Source of the DNA: Planctomycetota bacterium
GTDB lineage: Bacteria; Planctomycetota; Planctomycetia; Pirellulales; Lacipirellulaceae
Direction: 5' to 3'
DNA: 64,000 bases
Assembly (NCBI GenBank): GCA_013152205.1
Contig: JAADGV010000076.1
Location: 30,950 to 94,949, forward strand
Below are positions 25,364 through 49,901 of the stretch, piece after piece (position 1 is the stretch's first letter; each line of letters begins with the position of its first letter). Both the position numbers and the translations under genes were made by a program. The notes beneath the pieces were generated by a model. It was given only the letters and a program-made list of their open reading frames with translations, made no database searches and had not been told where the DNA came from.

Positions 25364-27355
25364 CTAAAACCGATCCAACCCATCAATCCAGCGACCCAGG
25401 CTATCGGCAAGATCGGCTTCGAGCACCGACCGGTTGTCGTCTCGAGCCGAAGTTTGCAGCCAACTGGCGGGGTAACCCGCTTTGCCGAGGCGTTCTAGGT
25501 CGTTGCGAATAAGTGGCGCAAAGGTGGAGTCTTGCGACTCGACCGCGAGGATGGCCAGGCGGCTGCCGGGGCGATTGGATGGGATTTTCAGCGAACGGGG
25601 CAAGGGAGCGTCGATCCCGATCGCGCCGCTAAAGTCTTTCTTTTTTGCAAAGGCTAGTGCATAAGCCAACTGGCCCGCTTTTTCGATACCGCCAACAACG
25701 ACTCGCTGAGAATCAAGCTGCCAACGGCGGCGAGCCGCGCTTGCAAGCCGATCGAGATATGCCAAATCTTCCGAGTTCCAACCGGTCTCGCTAGCCGGGT
25801 GAGCAATCAGTAAAATCATCTGGTCGCGTTGGCAGATTTCTTGCCACGCTTGAAGAAGCTGTTGATCGTCTGCTTCGCTGCCGTCGCCGAGCCAAAGCAG
25901 AAGTCCATTTGCTAGCTCGCCTTCGCCCTCAGACGCATAGAACTTTGCCTCTTGGGCGAATTCAGGCAGTTTGAGTGGTTGAAGTTCTGCATTGCTATCC
26001 GGCTCTTGCTTGCCGTCGGACGACGCCAGTTGATCTCGGCTGAGAATTTCAGACGGCAGTTGGCCCAATTTAGCGGATAGGGTTAACTCTTTTTCATCGC
26101 GACTGATCGTTAGTTTGACCGACTCGTCAGGCGGCAACGAATCCATCGTTTCGAGTACCTTGTCAAACGATTTCAGTTCTTTGTCGTTGATTGCCTTGAG
26201 CAGATCACCAGCTTGCAGCCCGGCTTCTGCGGCGGGGCTGTTGGGCCAGACGTTTCGCACCAGGATGCCGATTTTTTCGTCCGTCTTGCCTTGTCGAGCC
26301 GGTAAAACACCTAAGAACGCCTGCTGGTAGGCGGCCATTTCGCCCGCCAAGGTGATTTCGGATTCAAACTCCTCCTCGCCTCGCCGGATAGTTACGCTGA
26401 CGGTGTCGCCTGCGTACAGCGGCACAATTTGAAACCGTAGCTGAGATTGCGTTTGCGTTTGCTGACCATTGATCGACACAATCAGGTCGTCCGTCTTCCA
26501 GCCAGCAACCGCTGCGGGCGAGCCGGGCCAAACGGCGGCGATTTTTGGGAGGGCAATGGCGGTTGGCCCCGCGACAAGCCCCACCCCCAACTTGCCCGGC
26601 AGCAGGTCTTCGCCCAGCTTCCAACGATCAAGCACCGACATCACGTGCGAAATCGGGACAGCAAACCCAATTCCAGAATCGTAGTATTCAGCCCCCGCCA
26701 ACTCTTGGCCGTCGCTGCTGCCGCCTCCTGATGGGGCCATCGGAACGAGCACCCCCATCGTTCGGCCATAGACGTCAACCAGTGGTCCGCCGTAGTTGGC
26801 TACCGAAATGCTGGCGTCCGTTTGGATCACCCGACCATAGCGGCGATTCAGGCCGCTGACGATCCCTACCGAGACGTTCACTTCGTCGTCGTGAAAGGTG
26901 CGGCCAACAGCTATGGACCATTGGCCAACACGTATCTCTTCGGTGATCGCCGCTTCAGCAACTGGCAGGGGCGTTTCTGCTTCGATCTTGAGTAACACGA
27001 GCAATCGGTTTTTATCACGCGCCACAAGCTCTGCCGGCAACTGCTTGCCCGAGGCAAGACGGACGAGTATCGAACTCGGCTGCCCAGCAAAATTGAATGC
27101 GCTCGATACAATGTAGCCATCAGTCGAAACGATCAGCCCCGTGGTAGGCCCTTGAGAGATGAGCGTTTTCCCTACTTGATCAAGGCCACCTATCGTACGG
27201 ATTTGCACAATCGACTTGGCTGCCGATTCCACTGCCACATGCCACGCCTGCTGTTCGAGTTGATCGGTGCTAACTTCCGACGCAAATATAGCGGGAACAG
27301 CGAATATCAATGCCAATAGCATGGCTAACGTGTATTTCATTTGGGATCGTTTCAA
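25364..27355 (-). CDS. HtrA-like PDZ protein with inactive trypsin fold and C-terminal hydrolase-like domain
   Basis: TDASISVANYGGPLVD in the Ser position; two PDZ-like segments; C-terminal VVVGGIEKAGQLAYALAF. Confidence 0.8.
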   Translation of the reverse strand: MKRSQMKYTLAMLLALIFAVPAIFASEVSTDQLEQQAWHVAVESAAKSIVQIRTIGGLDQVGKTLISQGPTTGLIVSTDGYIVSSAFNFAGQPSSILVRLASGKQLPAELVARDKNRLLVLLKIEAETPLPVAEAAITEEIRVGQWSIAVGRTFHDDEVNVSVGIVSGLNRRYGRVIQTDASISVANYGGPLVDVYGRTMGVLVPMAPSGGGSSDGQELAGAEYYDSGIGFAVPISHVMSVLDRWKLGEDLLPGKLGVGLVAGPTAIALPKIAAVWPGSPAAVAGWKTDDLIVSINGQQTQTQSQLRFQIVPLYAGDTVSVTIRRGEEEFESEITLAGEMAAYQQAFLGVLPARQGKTDEKIGILVRNVWPNSPAAEAGLQAGDLLKAINDKELKSFDKVLETMDSLPPDESVKLTISRDEKELTLSAKLGQLPSEILSRDQLASSDGKQEPDSNAELQPLKLPEFAQEAKFYASEGEGELANGLLLWLGDGSEADDQQLLQAWQEICQRDQMILLIAHPASETGWNSEDLAYLDRLASAARRRWQLDSQRVVVGGIEKAGQLAYALAFAKKKDFSGAIGIDAPLPRSLKIPSNRPGSRLAILAVESQDSTFAPLIRNDLERLGKAGYPASWLQTSARDDNRSVLEADLADSLGRWIDGLDRF

Positions 27356-30138
27356 GGCACTGTTGCGTTGGGGGTTTCAATAGGCAAGTTGGCCTGAAGT
27401 TCGAACTCCAGTAGGGCACCATCGCGAAGCACCGACAACCGTAAATTCTGCTCGCGATCGTGGTAGAGCAACTGCTCGAAAAATGCTTTACGCGAAGAGA
27501 CCGGCTCGCCTTCGACAAAGACGACAAGGTCGTCTGGCCTTAGCCCCGCAGCATCGGCCGCCGACTTGCGCCGCACCGTATCGATGTAAGGAGGGGTCCG
27601 TGCCAATACATCGGGAATCATGCGCAAGCCTAGAATCTCGGGCGTCATCGGCTGCTCGGGCGTCGGGCGTTCGGAGCCAGCCATTTGCACCTCGCGGCCT
27701 ACAATAATATCGTCAACCGCCGCAGCCACGGCGTTAGCTGGTAAGGCATAGTTCAGCCAAGTGCCTGTCACTTCGCTACGCAGCTCTTTGCCTAGCATCC
27801 CAAGCAGCCGTCCCTGCCAATCAACCAGCACGCCCCCCGCAGCGCCAGGGTTGTTTGCGTAGGCGTCTAAGATAAAAACCTGTCCGTGGTAGTTGGATTG
27901 AAACGCGCCGCGGCGGGCCGACAGAGGAGAAATCGCAGTGATTACTCCCTGCAACACACTCACGGGTTCGTCGCCGGTAGCGATTCCGTAGAGATTGCTC
28001 AACGCCATGATGCGATCTCCCACGTTTGGCAGCACGGCTGAGTGCAGATCGAAATGCGAAAACTTCTCGCCCTCGGCTTGCAGTTTGAGTACGGCAATCT
28101 CGCGTATCGGATCGCTACCAATAAAATCGGCCTGCCATTTTCGCCCATCGTCTAAAATGACAACCAAGTCGTCGGTATCTAGCACGTAGCTCAGAGCCGT
28201 AAGAATATGGCCGTCCGCCGAGACGAGAATTCCCGACTGATAGGCTTCCATCTGGCGCAAACCACCAGCACCGTAAATTTTTACGACTTTTTTCCAAGCA
28301 TCGCGAATGGATGCTGGCGGGGGAGAGGTAGTAGGCATCTTTTTTGGGGTAGGCTCGATCGCTGTGTCTGATGGCTTGGGGCCGAAAAGTCCCGCAGCTC
28401 CGGTAAAGTTATCAATTTTCAATTCGGCAAATTGAACACCTCCGTACGCGACCTGCCATCGCCGAGCAATACGTTGCCCGGCAAGTTCGCCAAAGTCGAA
28501 GAATCGCAATTCGCAAGGGTCTTGCTCGTCCCCTGGAAACATATCGATGCCGACCAGTTCGCCTGTGTCGGGCGAGAAAAGAAAATGCGTTTCGATGCCA
28601 GCATAGATTCCCACCAAGCAGTCGACCCAGGCAGCGTCTGGCCCACTTGGCAATTGCCCCAGATAGTAAACCTCGCCAAATTGACGAAGACCTTTGTCGA
28701 GCATGCGCTGCCAAAGGTGAAGCGTCAGCAGTAGTCCGCCCGAACCTGGAGGGCTAAGCTGGCGGTCGAGATTGTTTACAAACTGGGCACTAGTATTCCC
28801 AGCAGGCAATCGCATCGAAGCCTTGTCGACAGTAGTTTCTATCTGAAAAGGCTTTCCTGAGGGCAGGCTCCCTGTAAGTTGCAAGGAGTAGGTTAACCCC
28901 TCTTCGTTGCGTGCAGATAGAAAACGGCTCCAGAGTTCTTGTTGCTTCTGTAGGTTGTACCAATAGTTGGCATACCCACGCCGGGCTTCGTAACGCTGGG
29001 CAACGACTTCCGGAAGTTCTGGTTTCTTTTTTAATAACCCCGGCAGCTTGGGTTTCTTTTTTTCTTGGTCGTCCTTCTTGGGCTTTTTGTCTTGGTGAGG
29101 CTCTGCCGGCTTTTTAGCTTCTGCTTGAACAAGATTGTAGAGCTGCGACGGATCGTGTAGCCCCATCAAACGCACGTGAATATCGAACGTTTCGCCCTCG
29201 CGGCGAAAAGACAAGGGAACCTTCCATCCACGCGGAAAAACGCCTAACACATTTTGCAGTGCGTTGGCCGACGTAATCTCTCGGCCCGCTAGGCGAACAA
29301 TCTCGTCGCCATAGCGCAAACCTCGCCGGTAGGCATCGCAGGTTTCCAAAATATCATCGACCACCACTCGGCCATCTTCCTCGGTAGCGACCGTAGCGCC
29401 CAACGTGGCATGATCGACAATTCTGCCGCTCTTGAGATGGGCAAGAAACCGTTTGATTTGATTGATCGAAATCGCGTAGCCTACGCCCACATTCACTCGG
29501 CCACGCTTTTCAAACGACCCGCGACCATTGATGCCAATAACTCTGCCCGCAGCGTCGAACAGCGGCCCCCCCGAGTTGCCTGGGTTGATGGAAGCGTCGG
29601 TTTGAAGGCAGTCGGTATATTCCAGAAGCGTGCCAGCCGGGTATTGATATCGATGGACTCCAGAAACAAACCCGTAGCTTACCGACGGAGTAAAATCGTC
29701 GGCCAGCAGAAACGGGTTGCCAATCGCATAAGCCCAATCGCCTACCTGTACTTCGTCGCTATCGCCCAATTCTGCGTAGGGAAAATCGTCTCTCCCCAAT
29801 AGCTGAATCAGCGCCACATCGCCCACCGGATCGATGCCAACGACCACCGCATCGTAAATTCGCCCATCTGCCATCCCACATTTCATGGCCGTGCCGCACG
29901 GGGCCGCGACATGAAAATTCGTCAACGTAAAACCATCAGGCGAGATAACCACCCCCGAGCCGCCCCCTTCGCCCCGGCTATCGAAAACGGCAACGGCTGT
30001 TGCCGATGCCCGTTGCACCGTTTCAATACGCTGTTGCTCTGCTTCTAAAACAGCCGCGTCGGGAGTCACTTCACCCAGTACCGCGGTGCAAAAAAAGAGC
30101 GTCAGCAGAAGGGGCAGACTAATTGATGTTTGTGTCAT
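27352..30138 (-). CDS. double trypsin/HtrA-like protein with PDZ segments (first domain active, second inactive)
   Basis: Domain 1 TNFHV / DPVGDVAL / INPGNSGGPLFD; domain 2 TALSYVL / DPIREIAVLKL / NNPGAAGGVLVD. Confidence 0.88.
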   Translation of the reverse strand: MTQTSISLPLLLTLFFCTAVLGEVTPDAAVLEAEQQRIETVQRASATAVAVFDSRGEGGGSGVVISPDGFTLTNFHVAAPCGTAMKCGMADGRIYDAVVVGIDPVGDVALIQLLGRDDFPYAELGDSDEVQVGDWAYAIGNPFLLADDFTPSVSYGFVSGVHRYQYPAGTLLEYTDCLQTDASINPGNSGGPLFDAAGRVIGINGRGSFEKRGRVNVGVGYAISINQIKRFLAHLKSGRIVDHATLGATVATEEDGRVVVDDILETCDAYRRGLRYGDEIVRLAGREITSANALQNVLGVFPRGWKVPLSFRREGETFDIHVRLMGLHDPSQLYNLVQAEAKKPAEPHQDKKPKKDDQEKKKPKLPGLLKKKPELPEVVAQRYEARRGYANYWYNLQKQQELWSRFLSARNEEGLTYSLQLTGSLPSGKPFQIETTVDKASMRLPAGNTSAQFVNNLDRQLSPPGSGGLLLTLHLWQRMLDKGLRQFGEVYYLGQLPSGPDAAWVDCLVGIYAGIETHFLFSPDTGELVGIDMFPGDEQDPCELRFFDFGELAGQRIARRWQVAYGGVQFAELKIDNFTGAAGLFGPKPSDTAIEPTPKKMPTTSPPPASIRDAWKKVVKIYGAGGLRQMEAYQSGILVSADGHILTALSYVLDTDDLVVILDDGRKWQADFIGSDPIREIAVLKLQAEGEKFSHFDLHSAVLPNVGDRIMALSNLYGIATGDEPVSVLQGVITAISPLSARRGAFQSNYHGQVFILDAYANNPGAAGGVLVDWQGRLLGMLGKELRSEVTGTWLNYALPANAVAAAVDDIIVGREVQMAGSERPTPEQPMTPEILGLRMIPDVLARTPPYIDTVRRKSAADAAGLRPDDLVVFVEGEPVSSRKAFFEQLLYHDREQNLRLSVLRDGALLEFELQANLPIETPNATVP

Positions 30139-31421
30139 TTGGTCACTCGCGCATCAACTAGGTGGAGTCGGTCGCCGAAGTCCAGGTTGGCGCCATAATC
30201 AACAAAGATACGCAATTGTCGGGCACCCTCCAACTGGACATCGATTTCGGTAGGTTGCCGTTTGCCTGCGATCTCGCCTTGCCAGACAACGCGATCGTCC
30301 GCAAAAATTTCGAGCGTCACATTGCCCTGGCTTGCCGTGTTCGGATCGATACCGGCAATCGCCACAAATCGTTGCATATTCTTCGGCAGACGATAGACGA
30401 TTTCCGTACGGCTTCGAATTGCCAATCCTTTGCGATAAGTTCGGATCTCATTGGAGTTCACCGATTTGCTCGTCGCGGCATCGGTCACCTTTGGCCAAGT
30501 AAGCGTAAGAGCCGATCCGGTGAACGATTGATCGCGCCGAGGCTGGCCATAGCCTTGGATCAATTCAACTGCCGCTGGTAAAGCAATACGCGGGGTCCAC
30601 GTTTGTTTGATGGGTTCTAGATCGCTCAGATAGCTGAGTTTCCCCTGCGAAAAATCGGCTGCGATTAAGGAATCTTGTGGCAATCGAAAATCAAGACCAC
30701 CGACGGTGGTGACTCTGAGCATTCCTTCTTCAAAAACGGCAGTCGCAATGGGAAGTCGCCCTCCGTTTTTCGTTTGCAGCCAACAGACGGCTGGCGCTAA
30801 ATCCGGCCCGTTGGCATGGTAATAAGCCAACGCAGCTACCTTCGACCATTTTACCGGGATCTCGTCGCCCTCCCAGTTGAAAGTAACTTGCTCGCTGGTG
30901 ATGTTCCCGAGCAGGCCCGTTAGATAGTCGAGAACGGTCCCCTTTTTCTTATGAATAATAAGTAGGTCGGCGGCCAACTGCTTTTCGTGGAGTTCTTCCC
31001 ACAAAGTCGTTAACTGCTCGACGAGCGGGGTGAACTGCACGCGGCGAATATCAGTGGTTGATACCTGCAGTTTTCCTTCGGAAAGCGGCGTCCCCACTTC
31101 TGCCTGTGAATCCGAGACCTCATAAGTAATTATTGGCAGCAGCGTGCCATCCATGAGTTCGATCGATGCAGGATCAGCGTTCGTATCTGCCTCATGCTGG
31201 GGCCAACGGATTGCGAGCAGCTGATCGACGCTCCAAGTTGTCGGGGCGCCCTCCTCCGAAGAGATAGTCACGCCCTCTGCATCCCAGGCTAGCAATTCGC
31301 CATCTACTTGCGTTCCGTCAACAGTGGTTACCGAAACTTGCCCTTTCGCTACCGGGGCAGAAAAAGCAAGTAGCAATGCTACGGCAAGGGCACCAAAAAG
31401 ATTAGGTCTGAATTGTTGCAA
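30135..31421 (-). CDS. NPCBM/NEW2-like domain protein
   Basis: C-terminal RLPKNMQRFVAIAGIDPNTASQGNVTLEIFADDRVVWQGEIAG...FVDYGANLDFGDRLHLVDARV. Confidence 0.75.
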   Translation of the reverse strand: MQQFRPNLFGALAVALLLAFSAPVAKGQVSVTTVDGTQVDGELLAWDAEGVTISSEEGAPTTWSVDQLLAIRWPQHEADTNADPASIELMDGTLLPIITYEVSDSQAEVGTPLSEGKLQVSTTDIRRVQFTPLVEQLTTLWEELHEKQLAADLLIIHKKKGTVLDYLTGLLGNITSEQVTFNWEGDEIPVKWSKVAALAYYHANGPDLAPAVCWLQTKNGGRLPIATAVFEEGMLRVTTVGGLDFRLPQDSLIAADFSQGKLSYLSDLEPIKQTWTPRIALPAAVELIQGYGQPRRDQSFTGSALTLTWPKVTDAATSKSVNSNEIRTYRKGLAIRSRTEIVYRLPKNMQRFVAIAGIDPNTASQGNVTLEIFADDRVVWQGEIAGKRQPTEIDVQLEGARQLRIFVDYGANLDFGDRLHLVDARVTK

Positions 31422-31442: not shown

Positions 31443-32507
31443 TTATTTGGAGGGCGGCGAGTCGGCACCTTCGGCCAACTCTCGAAAATACTCGTTAATC
31501 AGTTCGCGATAGTGGGCCGGAAATTCCCGTCCAATTTGTTGCATCGCCTGTTTACGTTCTTTGTCGGGCAATTCTCCCCAGCCCGATTGGTTGCCAATAT
31601 CGCGTTGGTCGACCTTCATCGGCGCCTTCATCGAGGGAAGACGACTATCGTCCATTGGTTTGGAACTCTGCGCCGAACCGCTCGAACTAGACGATTGTTG
31701 CTGTTGTTCTTCGAGCTTCTTGATGATCTTGTCGAGCGAATCAACGACCCCTTTTTCGACCATCTGAACCTGTTTGCCAGCACGACCAAATTCTAGGCGA
31801 CGGCGAACGTCGTTCATCCGACGAGCGATGTGGTCGAGCGATTCATCCTTGAGGCCAGCAAGATCGCGTTGCACCAGTTGCGCCACCTGCTGATACCGCC
31901 GAGGCAAAGCCGCTTCTTGCTCTAACAGTTGCACCAACGCAGCACGGCTTTGGTCTGGCTGCACAAGCTGCTGGTGAGCAACCAGCCGATAAAATAACAG
32001 GCCAGCCGGATCGACGACATCTGCGGGAGCGAGTCCTTCCAAGGCAACCAATACTTCGTCGTAAAGCCCCTGCTGCGCGAGCCAACGGGCATAATACAGA
32101 CGCAAATTATTACGCATCGCCTCGGGCAGCGCATGATCGTCTAACCAACTGGCATCCGGCGGCAAGGGCGATTCATGTTCCGCATTGCACGCTTCGAACA
32201 AAGCAAGGGCCTGCGTATTAACAAGCGAAAACGTCTCGGCAACCCGGCTCAGCAATGCGGTGCCATCGATTGGCTCTGGCTCAGTTGGCGGCCATAAGGC
32301 CCGTGCTTGGTCCTGCGACGGTTCGCTAGAATCGGATTGCTCGATCCACTCCAAAGCCGAGGTACGAACACTCGCATAACGGGGCATCTGCCAACTAGGC
32401 TCAAAAGTCAACTGCCCAACCGCAACACCACACGAGACCACAACAGCCAGTAAACAGCAGGCCGCTGGAGCGAATTTGCACATCAAAATGTAGTGAAGTG
32501 TTTTCAT
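31443..32507 (-). CDS. hypothetical secreted protein of MoxR/VWA operon
   Basis: Start MKTLHYILMCKFAPAACCLLAVVVSCGVAVGQ; C-terminal WGELPDKERKQAMQQIGREFPAHYRELINEYFRELA. Confidence 0.7.
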   Translation of the reverse strand: MKTLHYILMCKFAPAACCLLAVVVSCGVAVGQLTFEPSWQMPRYASVRTSALEWIEQSDSSEPSQDQARALWPPTEPEPIDGTALLSRVAETFSLVNTQALALFEACNAEHESPLPPDASWLDDHALPEAMRNNLRLYYARWLAQQGLYDEVLVALEGLAPADVVDPAGLLFYRLVAHQQLVQPDQSRAALVQLLEQEAALPRRYQQVAQLVQRDLAGLKDESLDHIARRMNDVRRRLEFGRAGKQVQMVEKGVVDSLDKIIKKLEEQQQQSSSSSGSAQSSKPMDDSRLPSMKAPMKVDQRDIGNQSGWGELPDKERKQAMQQIGREFPAHYRELINEYFRELAEGADSPPSK

Positions 32508-32537
32508 AACTATTGATTTCAGACCAAAAGAACTTAG

Positions 32538-32670
32538 CCACAGATAAACACTGATAAACACTGATGGAAGGCAACTATAGATCGTTTGGAAATAATGTCC
32601 CCTTCATCAGTCATGCCTTGCCAGTTATTTTATCCTCTGAATATCTGCGTTCATTCGTGTCCATCTGTGG
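32538..32670. repeat. CCACAGAT...ATCTGTGG inverted intergenic repeat
   Basis: ccacagataaacactgataaacactgat ... atctgcgttcattcgtgtccatctgtgg. Confidence 0.8.
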
Positions 32671-32680
32671 TTTCTTCTTT

Positions 32681-34339
32681 TTATTGGTTTCGATTAGTAT
32701 CAAGGTCGCGGGTCGCTTCAAAAATTCGTTCCTGACGGATCGCCAACTTATCAAGTGCTTCGAGAAGCTCGGCCTCGAGCGCTTGCTCGCCATCGATCAT
32801 CTCATCATATTTGGTCGTGCGACGATTCACCCGCATCTGGAGGGCACGGATCATGCGGAGTTCAGACAACTGATCGACCAACGACTGCTCGCCCGGTTGC
32901 CCTTCTCCCTGTTGTTGTTGCGACTTCTGTTCCCGAAGTTCTTTTATCGCTTGCTGTAGCGAGGCCAAGATTTCCTCCATCGTGGCGATGATGTCTTCTT
33001 CTAAGCCTTGAGTAATGATACCAAGCTTGACGTCGGCCAATCTTTTTGCCACTGCTTGCATATCGTCGATCGCTTGCCCCAAAGCTTCGGGAAACGCCAC
33101 CGAAGTGCCATCTTCTCGCAACAGTACCATCGCCCGGTCTGCATCACGAAGAATCTTCTGCTCCTTCCGGCTTAGGCGACCACTGGCAATCTCAAGCTCG
33201 TGGGTTTGAGTGTTTTCCTTCGCAGCATCTAGTTTCTTCGTCTGTTCGTAGATTTCGATCTGTGCATCCAACATCTTACGAAGGCGAGCTTCCAGCAGCA
33301 CTAGGGTCCGCTCCATCTCTTCTTCACGCAGTTGGCGAAGAATACGCTCTAGCTCTGCCTTGGCTTGTTCTAGCTCGCGTAACGCTTGCTCTTGCTCTTT
33401 GACGGCGTCCTTGCGATTGGCCTCCTCCAGCCGTTTCTTCGCTTGTTGCATGCGCTGCTGAGCTTGCTTCAAACGCTGGGTCGCGCGATCCGCAGGGCTT
33501 TGCTGTTTACTCTCGTTATTCTCGTCACTCTCGGGCGATTCGCCAGAACTTGGCTGGCTCTTTCCCGAAGGTGGAGACGGTTGTCCCTCCTTGGGTTTTC
33601 CTTTGGACCCTTCGGCTGGCTCAGAATCCGATTCTTTTGGGGCCTGAGATTTCTGCTCGCCCGGCGTTTGCTCCTTCGGTTCACCCGCGGACGGTTGGGC
33701 TTTACTATCGGAGTTCTCGCCCTCAGCGGCTTGGTCAGCTTTTGGTTTCTCTGAACCATCGGTCTCTTTGATTTGCCCACCGAGTTCTTGAGTCGCCTTG
33801 GCTACCTGCTGTTGGTCTTTGGTGAGCGTCTCCGCATCGTCGCCGCCATCGGTACGAGCTTTGATGCCTCTTTGAAGTCGAATGAGCTTTTTCAATTCAG
33901 CCAGATATTTGCCAATGCGTTTTCGCTCCGATTCAATTTCGCGATCGCGACCTTCTTGCAGCAGTAACTCAAGAAGTTTTTGTAGATCGGCCTGCAAGGC
34001 CCCTTGTCTCTCAGAAGCTGACGCAAGACGGTCTTGCTCTAAGGCTGTCACGATTACCTCGAATCGGCCAGCAATATCTTGTTCACGGCTTTTGGTAACA
34101 AGTTCGCGCAAGAGCCGCGCCCGACGAGGCTGGGTAGATTTTGATAACTCCGCCAACCGGCCAGCCAGCAGTTCCAACCGATCAAAGCGATCGGCTAGGC
34201 GGGATTCTTGCCCTGCAAGGTTCGCCTCTTTAGCTGAAGGCGGCGGTTCTTCCGCTTGCGCATGCCGAGGCATAGTCGTCGTCCACGCGAGGACGAAGAC
34301 GCTAAATAAGGCGAGGCAATATTGTTTGCTATGAATCAT
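32681..34339 (-). CDS. secreted coiled-coil protein with long low-complexity linker
   Basis: Signal peptide MIHSKQYCLALFSVFVLAWTTTMPRHAQA; S/P/K/E/Q-rich segment then long helices. Confidence 0.7.
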   Translation of the reverse strand: MIHSKQYCLALFSVFVLAWTTTMPRHAQAEEPPPSAKEANLAGQESRLADRFDRLELLAGRLAELSKSTQPRRARLLRELVTKSREQDIAGRFEVIVTALEQDRLASASERQGALQADLQKLLELLLQEGRDREIESERKRIGKYLAELKKLIRLQRGIKARTDGGDDAETLTKDQQQVAKATQELGGQIKETDGSEKPKADQAAEGENSDSKAQPSAGEPKEQTPGEQKSQAPKESDSEPAEGSKGKPKEGQPSPPSGKSQPSSGESPESDENNESKQQSPADRATQRLKQAQQRMQQAKKRLEEANRKDAVKEQEQALRELEQAKAELERILRQLREEEMERTLVLLEARLRKMLDAQIEIYEQTKKLDAAKENTQTHELEIASGRLSRKEQKILRDADRAMVLLREDGTSVAFPEALGQAIDDMQAVAKRLADVKLGIITQGLEEDIIATMEEILASLQQAIKELREQKSQQQQGEGQPGEQSLVDQLSELRMIRALQMRVNRRTTKYDEMIDGEQALEAELLEALDKLAIRQERIFEATRDLDTNRNQ

Positions 34340-34379
34340 GCTAGTTCTCTGCGGGATGGTGCCGCAGAGTGGGGTTACC

Positions 34380-36617
34380 TTATTCATCCAAAAGACGACG
34401 AAGTTTATCGCGGCGTTGCTGCTTGGTTTTCTCCTGCAACTGTTTCTGCTCGTCTACGATTCCACGCAACAACTCTACCAATTCATTGTAACTTTCCAAT
34501 TCCAACATGCGGTCGAGCACTTCTTTCATTGCCTCCGAAACTACCTCGGCCTGCGACACCGATGCTACTAGTCTACCTTGCTGATCTTCTGCCGACTTGA
34601 AAGCACTTTGAAGCTCACTGAGCCGTTCTTCTAGTATCGGCATCATCGTCCCGCTGATTTCGTGCAATGGTTCAGAGATTCCTTGTTCTAGCCGCTGCTT
34701 GAGTTCCTCGGTATCTACCCGATTATTTATCAATTCGGCAACGATTGCATCGAAACCGTCAGCTACGCCCACGGTTTCGTAGGCCAACTGCGTAACATTC
34801 TGCAACGCACCGGCGATTCGCAGCCGGTCGCGATCGTGGCGGCGGCTTAGCTCCTCTTCGTCGATGGGTTTGTCGTCGTCGGTGGTGGATGGCGTCGCCT
34901 CGATCCGTCCCAGCAAATCGCTGGTGCTAACCATCTTTTCGTAGATGGCCTCGAATCGTTGCCGTAGGGCCAGTTCACGTTTCTCGAGCAGCGCCCGTAG
35001 TTCGGAATTTGTCACCACATCGAGCAAAAACCGCTGACTCGAACCGACGTGGGGCTGATCTTGCAAATCATACGCATCTCGTGCCTTGACGGAGAGTGTC
35101 AATTGTTGCCCTGGCTGCAAATCGACTAATCGTCGCTTGGTTTCTGCGTCGGTCTCAGCCAAATCAAGTTTCCCCAGCTCCGACAGTTCGCGTCTTCCTC
35201 TGAGTTGCATAGAAATCGTGCGTTGCTCAGGCGGGTTTTTATCAAGTTGATACTCAAACCAGATCTCTTCCAACCCATACTCATCAGTGACTTGCCCTGC
35301 AAACGGAATCGTCGCCTGCGGAGTAACCGCCGATCCGATGCCACGAAGTTGAACCGAGATATCTGGCGGTTCATCAGCCACAACCGAAATCACAACGCGA
35401 TAAGGCTCACGGTTTTTAATACCATCGACATCGTGCATGGTAATGAGAAACACCCGATCTTCGTCGCCCGCCTCGAACTCAAAATTCACCTGCTGGCTGT
35501 TTTCCTCGGCGATCGCTGCCTGCACGTTTTCTTGTTGAGAAGGATCGTAGACTCGCACTTCCTGCAATGGTTTGTTTGCCGCAAATCGGAACATGCCATG
35601 CGTACCCTCGGGGATTTCAGCCCGACCACTGACCGAAATAGTCTGCGGCGGGCGTTGCAGGTAGGTTGGAAACTCACAGTCAATCGACATCTGCTCGATT
35701 TGAGAACGCTCAACAACTCGCAGCTGGAGGTCATAAATACGGTCGTCGTCGCCGATCAGATCGAAACGTAAATCAGAAACCACATTTTTGAACGTGTAGC
35801 GAAACCGCTGCGAGTCGTCTCGACCGGCCAACGCCACGCCGATCTTGGTCATGGTGTCGCGACCCCGACGGCCATCTTCCAGACGATAGCGTATCTCGAC
35901 ACTTGCAGGCGAAACATGGCCATCTTCGATCGAGGCCGCTACTTGCAATTCGTAATCGTCGTCGCGGGCAACTTTTACTACACGTTGCCCATCGATTTGC
36001 CGAAAACCATCAACGCTTAGCTGGACACGCCGGGGCCAGGGGGATTCGCTAAGGCGAATTCGCTGGAGCCAAAAACCGTAAGCCTCCGCTTGGAAAACGG
36101 AAAAACCGACGATCGAGGCGACGAGCAGCGAGGCCGAAACCAATTTCCAATACAGCGGCCGAAAATTGAAAATGCGGGAAAGCTGCACCTGCGGCATGGC
36201 TGCAGCAGCTTCCAGGCTAGTATGCCGAAGCATAGTCTGATGCCCGTCTGCCGGCGACTGGCCTTGCGTCGCAGCTTCAACGGTGGTGACCAGACTTTCT
36301 TTCAGCGTGGGGTACGTTCGCTCGAGCAATAAAGCCAAGCTAGTGTTGGGTAGAGGGCGAAAGATTCGGACAAGTAAATAATTCGCAAGCACGTAAAGAG
36401 CAGCCCCCAACACAAGCACCCATTGAGCAACTCGCCAAGCAGGCGCAGGCTCGAAGAGCCAATCGATGGCTAGCCCAAGCCAAAACACAACGCCAAACAC
36501 CAGCACCAATGCCGCAAACCCTTCGAGCAAAAGGTAAACACGCACCAGCCAACGCAGCCGCGAGACTTTGCGGCTAACCGGTTTGGGCATCGGCAGTGGT
36601 AGCGAAGCAGTGGACAC
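34380..36617 (-). CDS. large membrane protein of MoxR/VWA operon (DUF4175-like)
   Basis: Two N-terminal TM segments, beta-rich middle, C-terminal coiled coil. Confidence 0.6.
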   Translation of the reverse strand: MSTASLPLPMPKPVSRKVSRLRWLVRVYLLLEGFAALVLVFGVVFWLGLAIDWLFEPAPAWRVAQWVLVLGAALYVLANYLLVRIFRPLPNTSLALLLERTYPTLKESLVTTVEAATQGQSPADGHQTMLRHTSLEAAAAMPQVQLSRIFNFRPLYWKLVSASLLVASIVGFSVFQAEAYGFWLQRIRLSESPWPRRVQLSVDGFRQIDGQRVVKVARDDDYELQVAASIEDGHVSPASVEIRYRLEDGRRGRDTMTKIGVALAGRDDSQRFRYTFKNVVSDLRFDLIGDDDRIYDLQLRVVERSQIEQMSIDCEFPTYLQRPPQTISVSGRAEIPEGTHGMFRFAANKPLQEVRVYDPSQQENVQAAIAEENSQQVNFEFEAGDEDRVFLITMHDVDGIKNREPYRVVISVVADEPPDISVQLRGIGSAVTPQATIPFAGQVTDEYGLEEIWFEYQLDKNPPEQRTISMQLRGRRELSELGKLDLAETDAETKRRLVDLQPGQQLTLSVKARDAYDLQDQPHVGSSQRFLLDVVTNSELRALLEKRELALRQRFEAIYEKMVSTSDLLGRIEATPSTTDDDKPIDEEELSRRHDRDRLRIAGALQNVTQLAYETVGVADGFDAIVAELINNRVDTEELKQRLEQGISEPLHEISGTMMPILEERLSELQSAFKSAEDQQGRLVASVSQAEVVSEAMKEVLDRMLELESYNELVELLRGIVDEQKQLQEKTKQQRRDKLRRLLDE

Positions 36618-36659: not shown

Positions 36660-39161
36660 TTATGCTAGTTTCATCAAACGCCGAAGCAACCATTCAAGGC
36701 ACAGTGCCCCACCGATAATAGCCAGCAACATTCGATTGAGTTGCTCTGCAAAAACTTGGTCGGGGGCACCACGCAGGATTTTCTCCTCAGCGCGGCTTTC
36801 TATTTTTTGAGCCACCGGCGGTAGCGAACCACTGCCTTCGGCTGCTGCCGTCAGCGAGGTGTAGTATAAACCTCCCGTCTGCGTGGCAATGGCTGCTAAC
36901 AGCGGTTCGTTGCGGCGAGTTTGCTCGAATTCTAAATCGGGGACATAAACTTGAATACGTTTGACCAACTGATCGTCGATCGCGTCAGGGACTGCCAGTT
37001 CAACTCGATAGGCCCCCTGTTGTCTGACGTTAAATTGGCCGACAAAGTTCCCGGGGCGATTCCCGTCTGCATTCATCAAGAGGTTTCGCCCTTCACCTCG
37101 GGGGCTAATAATTCGAGCCGTAACACGTTCGGCTTGAAGCGGCTCGCGGCTGGCGGAAGTTAGTTGGGCACGAACCACAACGTCGTCACCGACCGTGTAG
37201 CGATCTCGCTCGACCAACAAGCTACCTCGCGACGAGCCACGCAAGAGCCGACCTTGGCTGACGTGGCGTATCAGCCGTGTGTAGAGGATTTCAAAATAAC
37301 TAGTATCCACGCTCCTCAGCCGCCAAAGTTCGCCACTCCCCATGTAGAACACTCGCCCTCCGCCATAAAAATGCTCGGCCAAGTAGACCGGCCGATCTAC
37401 CGAAATACCCGCATCGGGGTCGCTATAACGCCCCAAGACGCGAGCCCCCGGCTTGGGGCCTTTTACGGCGTAGCAACCAAAGATCCCCGCAAACCGCGAC
37501 CACAACGAACGACTTTCGGCAGCCGAATCGGCGAGCCAAAGAAAGTCGGACTCTTCGCCTTCTCGCGAAAATTCGATGGGCCAAGGGACTTTCGATCCGT
37601 AGAGCCCATCGTCGAGAAGCGTTAGTCGACGTTGAAATTCCACCGGGTAGAGTGCGCGAATTTTTGCAAGCTCAGGATTTTGTACCCAACTTGAAGTGTG
37701 AATCGGTCCTGCGACAACGATCAAGCCCCCCGACTCTTCAGCTACCCAAGACTCTAGCAAGTCGGCCTGCTGGGCGTCGAGTAAAGCCCAATTGGGATCG
37801 AAAGCCACAATGCAATCGTAAGGATAAAGCTCCTCTTTCGTGCGAGGGAACTCTGTCAGCAGACTGTCGGCACCTTGCGAAATGCCGGGCAAAGCGTTCT
37901 GCAACAAGACGTCGACCGTCGTGTAGCGATCGCGCCGAAGTTGATCACGCAGGAAGCGATAATCGCGAGTAGCCCCACTAGCCACAAGTAGCACTCGCGT
38001 TTTTGTTTCGACAACTTCGACTTCCACCTGACGACGATTATCGTCAGGATACTGATCGTCGGCTGAGACAGCGATACGGAGTTCGACCGTCAAGCGGCCA
38101 ATTTCTGCCGGTTCGATTTCAAACTGCAACGGAATGGTCTGCCGAGCCTCGTCGAAAGTCACTCGCTGTTGCCCCACGGGAGTAGCAACCGCACCATCGG
38201 CTTCGGTCGACTTCAGCAGCAGCTCGACATCGACCGAGCGTCCGGCAAAGTCTTCGCCCTGAATCAATGCCCGAACCGTCGCATGATCTTTCGGAAAAAG
38301 GCGTGCAGGCGCACTGAGTTCTAGCACCCGCACGTTTCGACGTGGTTGCGAGGAGCCGACTCCAACAGAAAAAATGGGAACGTCAAACTCCTGCGAGGCT
38401 TCGATCAAAGAGAGCGGGTCGATACCAATATTCTGTCCGCCATCGGAAACAAGGATGATTCCGGCCAGCGGCTTGCTACTTGGCTGAAGAGCTTCTTTCA
38501 ACGCATCGCCCAAACGTGTCTCGATGCCCCGAGGTTGTAGCTGTTGTTGCCAATCGTCGATTGGCGCGGCGGACGGTTCTGGCGACTCCGCAGAGTCTAA
38601 TTCGACAACATTCGCAGTTTTTTGCTCTTCCTCGCCGCGCCGAGGCCAAGTTTTTAGCCGCTTAACTTGCAGGTCGAAACCCAACAACGAAACATCATTT
38701 CTCTGCTGCAAGGTCTCGATCATCGACGATTCAGCCAACATCTTCGAGACCGCCTCGCCTCGGGTGGTTTTCGTGTTGTCCGTGCCGTCAGGCTCATCTT
38801 CGACCGACATGCTTTGGCTGGTGTCGATGAGTAGCAAGACCTCAGAGTCGGTAACAATCTGCTGGTCGACACGTTTTTCTAGCCCCAAAAAGAAGAGTAC
38901 CGCTCCGGCCAGCGCTACAAGCCGTAAACCTGGCAGCAGCCCACGGAGCAGCATGGGCAGGGGACTTTGCTCGCGGCGATATAGGGCCAATACATAGACA
39001 ACGACAGCAACGAGTAGGGCGACCAGACATCCCCAAAACAATCGCGGATCGTCGAAGTGTGCCAACCGGCGCAACTCATACGTCACCAACTCGCGCACGC
39101 TTCCCCCCCCAGGTGCCGTGACGGCAAGTAAAACGTCAAGTTTTGGCCACAAGGAAATCAT
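36660..39161 (-). CDS. VWA domain membrane protein
   Basis: N-terminal TMs; MIDAS-like VLLLIDTSQSMSVED; glutamine-amidotransferase-like/GATase1-like region. Confidence 0.85.
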   Translation of the reverse strand: MISLWPKLDVLLAVTAPGGGSVRELVTYELRRLAHFDDPRLFWGCLVALLVAVVVYVLALYRREQSPLPMLLRGLLPGLRLVALAGAVLFFLGLEKRVDQQIVTDSEVLLLIDTSQSMSVEDEPDGTDNTKTTRGEAVSKMLAESSMIETLQQRNDVSLLGFDLQVKRLKTWPRRGEEEQKTANVVELDSAESPEPSAAPIDDWQQQLQPRGIETRLGDALKEALQPSSKPLAGIILVSDGGQNIGIDPLSLIEASQEFDVPIFSVGVGSSQPRRNVRVLELSAPARLFPKDHATVRALIQGEDFAGRSVDVELLLKSTEADGAVATPVGQQRVTFDEARQTIPLQFEIEPAEIGRLTVELRIAVSADDQYPDDNRRQVEVEVVETKTRVLLVASGATRDYRFLRDQLRRDRYTTVDVLLQNALPGISQGADSLLTEFPRTKEELYPYDCIVAFDPNWALLDAQQADLLESWVAEESGGLIVVAGPIHTSSWVQNPELAKIRALYPVEFQRRLTLLDDGLYGSKVPWPIEFSREGEESDFLWLADSAAESRSLWSRFAGIFGCYAVKGPKPGARVLGRYSDPDAGISVDRPVYLAEHFYGGGRVFYMGSGELWRLRSVDTSYFEILYTRLIRHVSQGRLLRGSSRGSLLVERDRYTVGDDVVVRAQLTSASREPLQAERVTARIISPRGEGRNLLMNADGNRPGNFVGQFNVRQQGAYRVELAVPDAIDDQLVKRIQVYVPDLEFEQTRRNEPLLAAIATQTGGLYYTSLTAAAEGSGSLPPVAQKIESRAEEKILRGAPDQVFAEQLNRMLLAIIGGALCLEWLLRRLMKLA

Positions 39162-39167
39162 AGACGA

Positions 39168-41384
39168 TTAGTTTGAATTTTTCGTATGGTAGCTGGCACT
39201 GTAGGCAAGCCATTGCTCGACCAACAGAATTGCCAATAACAAGTACAGCATCGTATCGCTGAGTCGAAAACCGGCGAGCTGATCGTTGCCGGCGGTCATT
39301 TGCGAGGAGAGCGAAAATTCGTAATCGATGCCTTTGAGTCGCTGCGATAAGCCCTCGCGATCGAAATAGTGTAGATCGCCTTCTCCCGCAGCAACATTCA
39401 CAGCCATCAGACGTCGTTCAAGATCGCCTTCGCGCGGTTGAAGATCGAATTGCCAAACACCACTCACGTCGCTGCGACCGGCATCCACCAGATACTTGCC
39501 CTCCTCGGCCTGAGGCGTCAAGACGGTCTCTTCGCCTTCGTGCGTGCGCGGCATCCGCACTCGAACTTCTGGCTCGTAATCGATCTCCGCCAATTCAAGA
39601 TGGAGGTCTTCCCCCACGGCGCGAGATTCAAATTGGCGTCGCGAAGCTGAAAGGTAGCCAATCAACTCGTTGGCGTAGACCGGAAACACCGGATTCAGAC
39701 ACCAGTTGCTCCAACTACCAAGTTCGGTTGGTTTGGCCGATAGTTTGACATATTGCGTGACAACTCGCCCGGCGCCGAATTTCTTTTCGATGACAAACGG
39801 AGCCCTATTCTGTAAATTCGCCAAGACGCGTGTTTCGCCACTCTCCGGAAGCTGCCAACCCGACTCAATGGCATAATAAAAATTGACCTTGGCAACCGAA
39901 AGAAAACTATTTCGCTGACCCTCGAAAACGCGAAATATGGGATGGGCAGAAATCGTGATATCGGGCGTCGCGTTGTCGCCATCACTAAGCATTTGAGTTG
40001 GCACATCAAGCGGCGCTGGCAGCAAGCCGTGGCCATCGCGATAAAGTCGTTCGTTGTAAAACGGTTTTTGCACACCTGGGCCTAAAAATATTCCAAGCCC
40101 ACCGCCTTGCTCCACATAGTCTTCCAAGGCCGTTACCTCGGTTTCATCGAGACGAGAGACATCAAGCAAACAGATCGCAGCAAAGTCGCTGAGTCGCTCG
40201 TGTTGGCGAAGAAAACTTAGACGCTCTACCTGAGGGCTCCAGCCAGGCTTACTCGAGCCTCCAGGGTTCAAGGCAGTCCGTAAATAAAACCCGTCATCCC
40301 CCGTCCGAGAGCCATCGATCAAGAGCACGGGAAAGTCGCCCGGCACTTGGCAGGCGAAATAGTGGACGTTGTCGGTCTCGACCGCATCGCTATCTAGCGA
40401 AGCTTGCAACTGATGTGCGCCGGCTGTTGTAAATGTTACGCGAAGACGTCGAGTAATCTCTTCGCCCGGCGCGATTTCATCGAACTTAACCGCTGGGAGC
40501 TTGTGGCCATCCTGCGTAACACTGGCGGTCACCGCCACCGCAGGTGCATCACCGTAATTGGCAATACTCAATTGAAACCACGTTTCAACGCCCGCGGCTC
40601 GAATTCCAGATTCGGGTTCAAGCTGCGTAATTGCCAAGTTCGGCCGTAACTGTTTGACACATTGAACGAGGTGCAGTTGGGCTGACTGGTCGCGTAATTC
40701 ACCCAACGATTGGCGGATCTGTTGGCTGTCGTCCCACTGTCGGCTGCGGAAATCTGAAATTAGGTAGACGATTCGCGACTCGCCCTCCTCAGGCTCAGGT
40801 AGCCCCAAAGCTGCTTGAATCGCATCGAGTGGCCCTGCATTGCTTTCCGACGGTCTCATTTTGCTAAGACTCGATTGAAGCTGGTCCACTAGATTGCGAT
40901 CGAGCGAGCGCCCTCCGACTTCAAGTTCGGCGCCAGCCGACAAACGCTGCGCTTCTGAAAACCTTAGCAGCGTGAGCTTTTGATCGTCCGCTCTGGCCGA
41001 AGATTGCTGGACAATGAGGTCGACAACACGCTTCGCCTCGTCGAACACCATCGCCTGATCTTGACGGTCAGACATCGAATAGCTGTCGTCCAGTAGCATC
41101 AGATGATGCGTCGTGCCGCTACCCAATAGCCGCCCCCACTGATATTGCAACACCGGCCCAGCCAACATTAGCACCACAAGGGCCACCGCCGCAGTACGAA
41201 GCAGCAAAAGCAGCAGTTGCTTCAGCAAAATCCATTTCTTATTTCGCCGTTGGCTCTCAAGCAAAAAATCCATCGCCGCCCACTCAACACGCCGATGCCT
41301 ACGCAGGTTGATCAAATGGATCAACAGCGGCAAAGCAACCAGCGGTAGTCCAATCGCCAATAGCGATTGAAAAGTGAACGACAC
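39168..41384 (-). CDS. BatA/VWA domain protein
   Basis: N-terminal BatA pattern LPLLIHLINLRRHRRVEWAAMDFLLES; VWA DDSYSMSDRQD; C-terminal TM. Confidence 0.9.
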   Translation of the reverse strand: MSFTFQSLLAIGLPLVALPLLIHLINLRRHRRVEWAAMDFLLESQRRNKKWILLKQLLLLLLRTAAVALVVLMLAGPVLQYQWGRLLGSGTTHHLMLLDDSYSMSDRQDQAMVFDEAKRVVDLIVQQSSARADDQKLTLLRFSEAQRLSAGAELEVGGRSLDRNLVDQLQSSLSKMRPSESNAGPLDAIQAALGLPEPEEGESRIVYLISDFRSRQWDDSQQIRQSLGELRDQSAQLHLVQCVKQLRPNLAITQLEPESGIRAAGVETWFQLSIANYGDAPAVAVTASVTQDGHKLPAVKFDEIAPGEEITRRLRVTFTTAGAHQLQASLDSDAVETDNVHYFACQVPGDFPVLLIDGSRTGDDGFYLRTALNPGGSSKPGWSPQVERLSFLRQHERLSDFAAICLLDVSRLDETEVTALEDYVEQGGGLGIFLGPGVQKPFYNERLYRDGHGLLPAPLDVPTQMLSDGDNATPDITISAHPIFRVFEGQRNSFLSVAKVNFYYAIESGWQLPESGETRVLANLQNRAPFVIEKKFGAGRVVTQYVKLSAKPTELGSWSNWCLNPVFPVYANELIGYLSASRRQFESRAVGEDLHLELAEIDYEPEVRVRMPRTHEGEETVLTPQAEEGKYLVDAGRSDVSGVWQFDLQPREGDLERRLMAVNVAAGEGDLHYFDREGLSQRLKGIDYEFSLSSQMTAGNDQLAGFRLSDTMLYLLLAILLVEQWLAYSASYHTKNSN

Positions 41385-41441
41385 GCGATTTCCTCCGATA
41401 ATAAACTGCCACGCAGTTGCAAAATGTTTGGGGATTTATTT

Positions 41442-42347
41442 TTAATGCCTACGGGCATCAGCCACACGATGGCACAAGAATGCTGCCAACGCCGCATCAA
41501 GCGAATCGCTAGTCCGGATTAGGGCGTAGTCGATGGCATCGCGGGCACAACCTCTTCGCAGCTCGGAAAGAAATTTTTCTAACGCGGCCAAGTACCCTTC
41601 GCGCAACGCCCGAGGATTACATTTCATCTGTGTTGGCAGCTCAAGTCCCTCAAACTTGGTCGGACCTTCAAACGGAAAATCCAGTTCGTCGTCGTCCATA
41701 ATGTGCAAAACAAGCACGTCGTGCCCACGCTGCCTTAGCAGACGTAGGCCACGCAGTGTTGATTCTACGTTTCCCAGCAAGTCGGAAACTAAAACCATCA
41801 TGCCGCGCCGGGGGCTTGTTTCTACCACTTCTCGTAAAATGACGCCGGCATCTGTTTTGTTTTGCGGCTCGCTGGCATCCAGCACTTTGACGATCGACTG
41901 CAACTGGTTCTGGCGACTCCGTAAGGGTGTCCTCGCACGAATTTTTTCGTCAAAGGCAATGCAACTCACCGAGTCGTGTTGCTTGAGAAGCAAGTAAGCC
42001 AAACTGGTCGCAACCGTGGCAGCGTATTCATATTTGTTCAGCGGACCATTGCCATACTGCATGCTGGCCGAAACGTCGACCAGCAACGTGCATCGCATGT
42101 TCGTATCTTCTTCAAACTGCTTGACGTAAAGCCGATCTTGCTTGGCCCACACTTTCCAATCGACGTGCCGTAGATCGTCGCCAGGAACATATTGGCGGTG
42201 CTGAAGAAACTCGACTGACTGCCCGAAATAGGGGCTACGGTGCATACCGTTCAATAGCCCTTCGACGATATGCCGAGCGCGCAACTCCAATCGACCTATG
42301 CGTCGAATTGCTTCAGGATGCAAAAATCGCTTGGAATCGGGCGTCAT
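41442..42347 (-). CDS. DUF58 domain-containing protein
   Basis: [55 protein letters not shown]. Confidence 0.95.
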
Positions 42348-43365
42348 TTGCTAACTCATCCTCCTGTGTCGGCGTGGTCTGAATAAGAGAATCGATAATG
42401 CTGTCGGAGCTGATGCCGTCGCTCTCCGCTGCAAAATTGACCACAATACGATGCCGTAGCACAGGCTTAGCCAACGCTTGAATGTCTTCGATGGTAACGT
42501 GCGTACGTCCCTGCATCAAAGCCCTGGCTTTGGCCCCAACAATCAAGAACTGCACGGCACGAGGGCCAGCTCCCCAAGCCAGTTGCTCGGTGGCAAGTTC
42601 GGGCACGCCTTCTTCGCCAACTCGCGTCTGGCGAACAAGAGAGAGCGTGTAGCGTATCACGTGGTCGCTTACCGGAACCGTGCGGACCAACTCTTGCAGC
42701 TTGAGAATCTCCTCAGGATCAACCGTCGGCACGACCGAGTCGGTGACGAGCGACGTCGTGCGGCGAGCGATTTCAAACTCTTCGCCAAAGCTGGGGTAGG
42801 TAACCAGCACTTTGAACATAAACCGGTCTTGTTGTGCTTCGGGCAGCGGATAAGTGCCTTCCTGCTCGATGGGATTCTGCGTTGCTAGTACAAAAAACGG
42901 ATCGGTAAGCTGATGCCGTACACGACCGACCGTGACTTGCCGTTCTTGCATCGCTTCGAGCAAAGCCGCTTGCGTCTTGGGCGGTGTTCGATTGATCTCG
43001 TCGGCAAGCACAATGTGCGAAAACAAGGGGCCTTCCAAAAAGCGTACTTCTCGCTGCCCTGTCGAACGGTTCTCTTCGATGATATCCGTGCCGGTAATGT
43101 CGGCAGGCATCAGGTCGGGCGTAAACTGAATTCGGCTGAAGGTGAGGTTCAGCGTTCGAGCCAAAGTGCTGATCAACAATGTTTTTGCTAAACCAGGAAC
43201 CCCTTCAAGCATGCAGTGTCCGCGACTAAACAGACTGATTAAAAGCTGATCGATGACATCATCTTGCCCGACAATGACCTGGCGCAGTTGCTCGCGAATG
43301 CCGTCTACGGTCGACGCGAGTCGTGCAATGGTTTCAGCGTCGGCAGTTGCCTCAGAGTTGCTCAT
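42313..43365 (-). CDS. moxR: MoxR family AAA ATPase
   Basis: [82 protein letters not shown]. Confidence 0.97.
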
Positions 43366-43574: not shown

Positions 43575-44669
43575 TCACCGCTGGTAGATAGGCAAACAGG
43601 CCCGTTCTAGTTGCATAATAACGAGATTCAGCGAGGTGGTGTAGACAGGTCCTACATAACCTTGCTTCCACACCGCGACGGTAGTATCGCCAATCTGAAT
43701 TCGTTCTGCCTCACGCAATAGTCGCTGACTGATTTGACGAGAGTAATCCTCCCATTCTTCGCCGCCCTCGCGATACTTCACTTGGGAGTAGTAGAAATGG
43801 GCGTAATGCCAATGGCCAAAACTATCGCGGTTGTTTGGTTTTAGTTGTTGTTTGCAATACTCCATCATCTTGGGGACAAAATTATCATCATATTCCCCAG
43901 CATTGTAGAGACTGGCAATCGCAGCCGCGGTAATCGCTGGGCGGCTGCCGCCTCCCTTCGAGCTGTACTGAACTCCACCATCTGAGTGCGTGCATTTGTG
44001 AATATAGCCGACCGCTTTGTCAATAATTTCTTTGGGCACCGGAATTCCAGCATTACGACATCCACGCAGCCCTTGTACCTGGGTAATGGTTGTCGAACCT
44101 TCGTCAAAGCCATTGCCATCTTTTGCACTTACATAGCCCCAGCCACCAGCCCGCGTTTGTGCGCGACCCGTGAACTCGACCGCCTTGGCAAGCACATGCG
44201 TCAAATCTTGCCGGCGGTCGAAATCTTCTTCCTCCCCAATCACTTGAGAAAGAAAAAGCATGGCAAATCCATGGCCGTAGGTATAACGCTCGTCGTCCTG
44301 ATCGCCGATCAAACCGTTATTCCGACTACGGCGAGTGAGGAAATCAACCGCTCGACGAATATTCTCGGCATACCGACCCTGAGTGGTAGTCGACCCCTCG
44401 CACAACAGCGCTAAACCGGCAAGCGAAGTCATGGCCGTAGGGTAACGGCCCTGCGCAGTCCAGTGGCCGGCCTTGTGTTGCTGATAGGCCAACCACTCCA
44501 ACCCCTGAGAAACCGTTTCTTCCGTCTGAGCATCGATCGCAGCCCATGACACCCCGCCCCCTGTGCTAACAACCACCAAGGCCATAGCAACAGACAACCA
44601 CCGAACAAACGAGGTGCTGATTAAACAGATATTGTTGGAGGATGTTTTTTTCACAATTGGTATTCGCAA
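43575..44669 (-). CDS. prenyltransferase/squalene-oxidase repeat (alpha-toroid) protein
   Basis: Repeated GLEWLAYQQHKAGHW, GGWGYVSAKDGNGFDEG, GGVQYSSKGGGSRPAITAAAIASLYNAGEYDD. Confidence 0.88.
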   Translation of the reverse strand: MRIPIVKKTSSNNICLISTSFVRWLSVAMALVVVSTGGGVSWAAIDAQTEETVSQGLEWLAYQQHKAGHWTAQGRYPTAMTSLAGLALLCEGSTTTQGRYAENIRRAVDFLTRRSRNNGLIGDQDDERYTYGHGFAMLFLSQVIGEEEDFDRRQDLTHVLAKAVEFTGRAQTRAGGWGYVSAKDGNGFDEGSTTITQVQGLRGCRNAGIPVPKEIIDKAVGYIHKCTHSDGGVQYSSKGGGSRPAITAAAIASLYNAGEYDDNFVPKMMEYCKQQLKPNNRDSFGHWHYAHFYYSQVKYREGGEEWEDYSRQISQRLLREAERIQIGDTTVAVWKQGYVGPVYTTSLNLVIMQLERACLPIYQR

Positions 44670-49401: not shown

Positions 49402-49901
49402 CCTTACCCCTCCTATTGCCAGCACTTTGTTCGTGGCTTGCTCTGCTGCCGAGTCGACCGATCTCGCCTCAGAAAAGAGGCCTGGTGCAGCACACAACCA
49501 CCCTGTTCTGGCCACTCCTAGGCCGAACAATGTTCTCCAACAGCTTCCCTGCACCGAGTGATAAGCTCGACATGTGGCGTAACACATTTGCTCTACTAAG
49601 TTTACAACCGATGTCAAAATAGATCAATCCAGCGAAGCTTGCCGAGAGAGGCACTCTTATGGGGGGTACACAAGCGATTCTTTCGTCTTCCGTATACTGC
49701 CTAAAACACGTAAAACACGATCTGAGAGGCTCCCCAGGCGGAAAAACCCTGTTTTTCCCGTGTTTTCCGCAAAAACGGCTTGTAATTTAGTGCCAACCGT
49801 CTTAAAAGTCAGCACATCGCATTGATTGGGTGCTAGATTTCTAGGTAATTGAGTTTCTAGCCCTTGTGACCACCCGTAAGCACTAAGGAGGGTTTTCCAA
49901 A

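Follow-up and report, generated by a model that had tools for sequence, protein, structure and literature searches.

HtrA proteases are homotrimers, activated by PDZ domains that belong to the same protein, and DegP that lacks its catalytic serine retains chaperone activity. To our knowledge, DegP, DegQ, DegS and MucD are homo-oligomers without dedicated inactive partners. In magnetotactic bacteria, MamE-dependent proteolysis needs MamO; the catalytic triad of MamE is required and that of MamO is not, no physical interaction between the two proteins was detected, and the transporter domain of MamO, not its protease domain, is needed for activation (PMC4794232). The pairing of active and inactive HtrA proteins evolved several times in these bacteria (PMC4794232), which fits selection for such pairs. 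Two further systems bear on the present locus: the Bat (Bacteroides aerotolerance) proteins, for which a periplasmic complex has been proposed (PMC3557215), and the MoxR-vWA ternary conflict systems, in which MoxR and vWA are encoded with inactive trypsin-like domains (PMC7159879).

Here we describe a locus, on the minus strand of the window (the whole 64,000-nucleotide stretch of DNA that was analysed), at which one active HtrA protease domain (D1) is encoded with two inactive homologues (D2 and D3). On balance we favour a three-component secreted HtrA system made of one active protease and two dedicated, anciently inactivated homologues, in which the dead subunits would regulate or feed D1. 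First-pass annotation had dealt with the protein in which D1 and D2 are fused; the present analysis adds D3 as a second pseudoprotease, the separation of D1 and D2 in most relatives, an extra domain (LINK) and the MoxR/Bat operon.

The fused protein and its neighbour

The fused gene (27352-30138, minus strand) is uninterrupted from its ATG to its stop and encodes 928 aa, in which Pfam recognizes Trypsin_2 and PDZ in two stretches each. It overlaps by 4 bp with the D3 gene (25364-27355, minus strand), which has a TTG start and encodes 663 aa. The features of the two genes are as follows.

30073..30138, minus strand: signal-peptide-like N-terminus of the fused protein, aa 1-22 (helix 7-19 in the model)
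29419..30057, minus strand: D1, active HtrA (Trypsin_2) protease domain, aa 28-240 (Pfam Trypsin_2 at aa 60-203)
29911-29913, 29818-29820 and 29572-29574, minus strand: D1 triad codons His76, Asp107 and Ser189
29149..29406, minus strand: PDZ domain of D1, aa 245-330 (PDZ_2 in Pfam and model secondary structure)
28999..29121, minus strand: Pro/Lys-rich linker of low confidence, aa 340-380 (pLDDT under 50 at aa 345-372)
28369..28986, minus strand: LINK, alpha/beta domain C-terminal to D1, aa 385-590, conserved in its class (from the model)
28315..28371, minus strand: fusion junction, aa 590-608 (from intergenic distances and overlaps in relatives)
27694..28311, minus strand: D2 pseudoprotease domain, aa 610-815 (orthologue triads and DegQ/DegP profile match)
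28189-28191, 28099-28101 and 27838-27840, minus strand: D2 triad columns Ser650, Glu680 and Ala767
27394..27642, minus strand: PDZ domain of D2, aa 833-915 (PDZ_2 at aa 850-914)
26621..27238, minus strand: HtrA pseudoprotease domain of D3 (Trypsin_2 E 3.9e-17), with Tyr188 in the Ser column at 26792-26794
26066..26608, minus strand: two PDZ domains of D3, aa 250-430 (two PDZ_2 stretches)
25367..25978, minus strand: D3C, alpha/beta-hydrolase-like C-terminal domain of D3 (Abhydrolase/Peptidase_S9 matches in some members, best E 1.6e-5)

As first-pass annotation had read, D1 keeps the HtrA triad in the motifs TNFHV, DPVGDVAL and GNSGGP (H76, D107 and S189). This intact His-Asp-Ser, with at least one C-terminal PDZ domain, gives D1 two marks of an HtrA/Deg protease, and its best fold matches are DegP, MucD and DegQ (TMt up to 0.83, Foldseek with the model of the fused protein). 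A hydrophobic 12-mer precedes the domain in 87 of 94 D1 proteins. The fused protein scores 314.1 bits and D3 202.5 bits with NCBIfam TIGR02037 (Do-family serine endopeptidase), below its cut-off of 416.2.

The D2 motifs had likewise been quoted correctly (TALSYVL, DPIREIAV and GAAGGV), and the alignment places Ser650, Glu680 and Ala767 in the triad columns. The chymotrypsin-type fold then claimed for D2 is borne out, as its profile matches the solved structures of DegQ/DegP along almost all of its length (E 1.5e-39) and the domain is beta-rich in the model of the fused protein, mostly with pLDDT above 70. The top 50 Foldseek matches of the fused model are HtrA matches only, which say little on D2 separately and are uninformative on LINK.

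The D3 model (AlphaFold2, pLDDT 87.7) has DegP as its best Foldseek match (E 7e-33). D3C is missing from more distant D3 proteins, and a nucleophile Ser stands at its G-x-S-x-G column in 0 of 41 sequences. With Tyr in place of the protease Ser and a hydrolase-like domain without its nucleophile, D3 looks doubly inactive.

LINK, modelled as alpha-4beta-alpha-7beta, has no Pfam match in the window copy and matches DUF4292 weakly in 8 of 28 relatives (best E 3.5e-5). The order of strands and helices and the weak DUF4292 matches had raised the idea of a LolA/RseB-type lipid sensor, which we rejected, as hhalign against the single sequences of E. coli RseB and LolA gave a probability under 1%; a search of the PDB with the LINK profile returned chance-like matches only.

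Conservation, history and operon of the cassette

The genome of the window (G000) has 16 matches to PSD1, a family that none of 14 control genomes contains; as we link PSD1 with planctomycetes, the genome, and with it the phylum, looks planctomycete-like. We fetched 95 regions from relatives and scored triads over 94 loci. The D1 triad is HDS in all 93 readable orthologues. That of D2 is intact in none of 93, across many families of the phylum, and that of D3 in none of 90, with Ser replaced by Tyr in 89; D2 and D3 thus each combine the HtrA fold with a conserved loss of the triad, as is expected of HtrA-fold pseudoproteases. The pseudoprotease call made for D2 in the first-pass annotation therefore holds across the sample (triad lost in 93/93, dN/dS about 0.08), and no orthologue with an intact triad was met. 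The residue swaps that it listed are true of the window copy, but Glu and Ala are not fixed: the Ser column of D2 reads A55 Q14 P7 Y6 across orthologues, and the Asp column E40 G22 D16. As the replacements vary, the conserved property is inactivity and not a given residue. There are many invariant columns in D2 orthologues, and the NPG..GG loop is kept; the full-length alignment was built from the fused rows together with rows in which one TAG was read through. A lost triad is not the rule for Trypsin_2 domains of this genome: of the 10 others, 9 keep H-D-S by eye. The tenth, which lies outside the cassette (G000:C106:19591-19998, L189), looks degenerate.

In a tree of protease domains, which was unrooted and made by a quick method, a single branch sets off each of D1, D2 and D3 (SH-aLRT 100, 99 and 99), and E. 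coli DegP/Q/S and the other HtrAs of the genome fall outside all three groups. With one clade for each, the inactivation of D2 and D3 looks ancient and not like repeated decay. Against the nearest relative, dN/dS was 0.07/1.53 (about 0.04) for D1, 0.11/1.41 (about 0.08) for D2 and 0.16/1.40 (about 0.12) for D3; dS is near saturation, so these ratios are rough, and by their measure D1, D2 and D3 are all under purifying selection.

Of the 392 genomes of the phylum sample, 66 have a D2 orthologue, with scores from about 190 bits upwards (next matches at most 142): 11/12 of the same order, 27/28 others of the same class and 28/352 elsewhere, all lower bounds because few candidates were scored per genome. 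G023, G027 and G052 yielded no cassette. In nearly all complete loci the order is D1-D2-D3 on one strand, often with 4-bp overlaps. D3 mostly adjoins D2 in D2-positive genomes; in G146 and G164 it is encoded at another place in the genome, and next to D1-D2 of L120 and L121 it was not found, so strict co-location is not required. One genome has, besides its ordinary cassette (L093), a second, divergent D1-D2-D3 cassette (L104, G043:C12).

D1 and D2 are separate adjacent genes in most relatives. The site that corresponds to the junction (aa 590-608) is where D1 stops and D2 starts with its own signal peptide, and 79 of 86 separate D2 proteins have a hydrophobic, signal-peptide-like N-terminus. 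D3, too, starts with a sequence that resembles an export signal. The two are fused in 11 loci, those of the window genus (G000, G001, G007, G008 and G011) and six in four other families. The fusion is no assembly artefact, because four other genomes of the genus (L052-L055) and the six more distant loci have it in frame as well. Fused and separate states require at least 5 changes on the tree, 4 of them forced by well-supported branches, and fusion appears to have arisen independently about five times.

Upstream of D1, the operon continues with the following genes.

30135..31421, minus strand: NPCBM/NEW2-domain gene (NPCBM E 2e-22), with a 4-bp overlap with D1
31443-32561, 32681-34387 and 34380-36617, minus strand: three conserved operon genes without Pfam match, placed by their conservation upstream of D1
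36660..43365, minus strand: VWA, BatA/VWA, DUF58 and MoxR AAA+ ATPase genes (Pfam), in the 5' part of the operon

The NPCBM gene and D1 are same-strand neighbours in 70 cassette loci, and the three genes without Pfam match precede D1, in the same orientation, in 79, 76 and 46 cassette loci, respectively. The gene order that identifies a Bat/MoxR operon, MoxR-DUF58-BatA-VWA, is present. Of 20 extended loci, 16 have these genes ahead of D1 in unchanged order and orientation; the other four keep part of the series, and all but one of these are distant members of the phylum. The HtrA trio forms the 3' end of a long MoxR-DUF58-BatA/VWA operon of stress type that is conserved across the class and the phylum. 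At the 5' end of the operon, a terpene-cyclase-toroid-like protein (43575-44669) and a 1614-aa PQQ-propeller/TPR protein (44773-49617) are present in many relatives.

Possible roles of the inactive homologues

The association of D1, D2 and D3 is well supported; which way regulation runs, and in what stoichiometry, is what we infer. The first-pass suggestion that D2 acts on D1 is borne out as an association, by adjacency, short overlaps and repeated fusion; D2 might activate or inhibit D1, bring it substrate or help to assemble it. In the three-component system that we favour, D2 and D3 would bind D1 outside the cytoplasm, and the packing of an HtrA trimer would be the simplest way, as HtrA proteins are trimeric and a heterotrimer is the simplest arrangement. 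Their PDZ domains and dead active-site clefts would sense or hold misfolded envelope proteins, and they would switch on or aim the sole active site, that of D1, in step with the chaperone-type MoxR-BatA/VWA machine of the same operon. Fusion sets a 1:1 ratio of D1 to D2 in the window genus; a homotrimer of D1 with D2 attached at its side would explain the fusion just as well.

We put forward more tentatively a wider form of this system: a hetero-oligomeric HtrA machine of one subunit that cuts and two that are dead but obligate, which would be ancestral over much of this planctomycete-like phylum and coupled to the MoxR/BatA AAA+ machine. Labour would be divided inside an HtrA trimer, with sensing and substrate capture left to the pseudoprotease subunits. 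Possible to a like degree is the special case of a strict 1:1:1 heterotrimer of D1, D2 and D3, in which one subunit cuts and two relay the PDZ signal. It would suit the trimeric state of HtrA proteins, the three paralogues per cassette and the 1:1 ratio of D1 and D2 fixed by fusion. The residue after 'VG-', which its motif equates with a residue at the trimer contact of human HtrA2, is for the most part Trp in D1 (53/94) and in D3 (70/90), whereas D2 has Arg there (52/94), a difference that unlike subunits might show; this argument, however, is one column mapped by motif, and homotrimers are compatible with it.

D2 and D3 could instead be independent binding proteins, chaperones or adaptors that serve the MoxR/BatA machine by binding unfolded proteins or C-termini, while D1 would simply be expressed alongside. 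The survival of chaperone activity in DegP without its Ser, the two PDZ domains and dead hydrolase domain of D3, the chaperone-type MoxR kind of the operon and the occasional unlinking of D3 all agree with such a role, yet the repeated, independent fusion of D1 with D2 points to D2 working with D1 specifically, and we regard this alternative as rather unlikely. That D2 and D3 still cut peptides through unusual, rearranged active sites seems very improbable: the NPG..GG loop is retained in D2, and pseudo-enzymes sometimes keep activity, but the Ser column of D2 (A, Q, P, Y, G) offers no conserved nucleophile candidate and that of D3 is Tyr in 89/90. Hardly credible at all is a functionless, decaying D2 duplicate fused by accidental loss of a stop codon, which would account for lost and variable catalytic residues but was rejected on conservation and dN/dS, given the orthologues in many families, the many invariant columns, the purifying selection and the signal peptide that D2 carries when separate.

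Comparison with known systems

We found no description of the D1-D2-D3 cassette in the open-access literature, which is weak evidence of novelty. If the three-component system is real, it would be a natural split of sensing from cutting in HtrA, with parts that can be removed one by one; it would add proteolysis to the MoxR/Bat operons, which are poorly understood, and the pairing of active and dead HtrA known from magnetotactic bacteria would recur outside biomineralisation.

The closest precedent is MamE/MamO of magnetotactic bacteria, where an active HtrA and an inactive trypsin-like homologue are likewise encoded in one gene cluster and the inactive one is needed for proteolysis (PMC4794232). 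The two systems differ in that there are two proteins there and three here, and no fusion of the pair has been described there; MamO is a metal-binding protein with a TauE-like transporter domain, for which the window proteins have no Pfam match, and its setting is biomineralisation, in contrast to the MoxR/Bat operon here. DegP, DegQ, DegS and MucD share the protease-PDZ fold and the triad with D1 and are the top structural matches of D1 and D3, but the proteins described here score below the Do-family cut-off, and the D1, D2 and D3 clades stand apart from E. coli DegP/Q/S.

The Bat operons have the same MoxR AAA+, DUF58, BatA and VWA genes in a row; the HtrA trio was not found in the Bat papers searched, and here, in contrast, three HtrA-type modules end the operon. 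The MoxR-vWA ternary conflict systems also bring together MoxR, vWA and inactive trypsin-like domains (PMC7159879). Their effectors are variable, whereas the system described here has conserved genes, signal-peptide-like N-termini and the MoxR of a DUF58/BatA operon.
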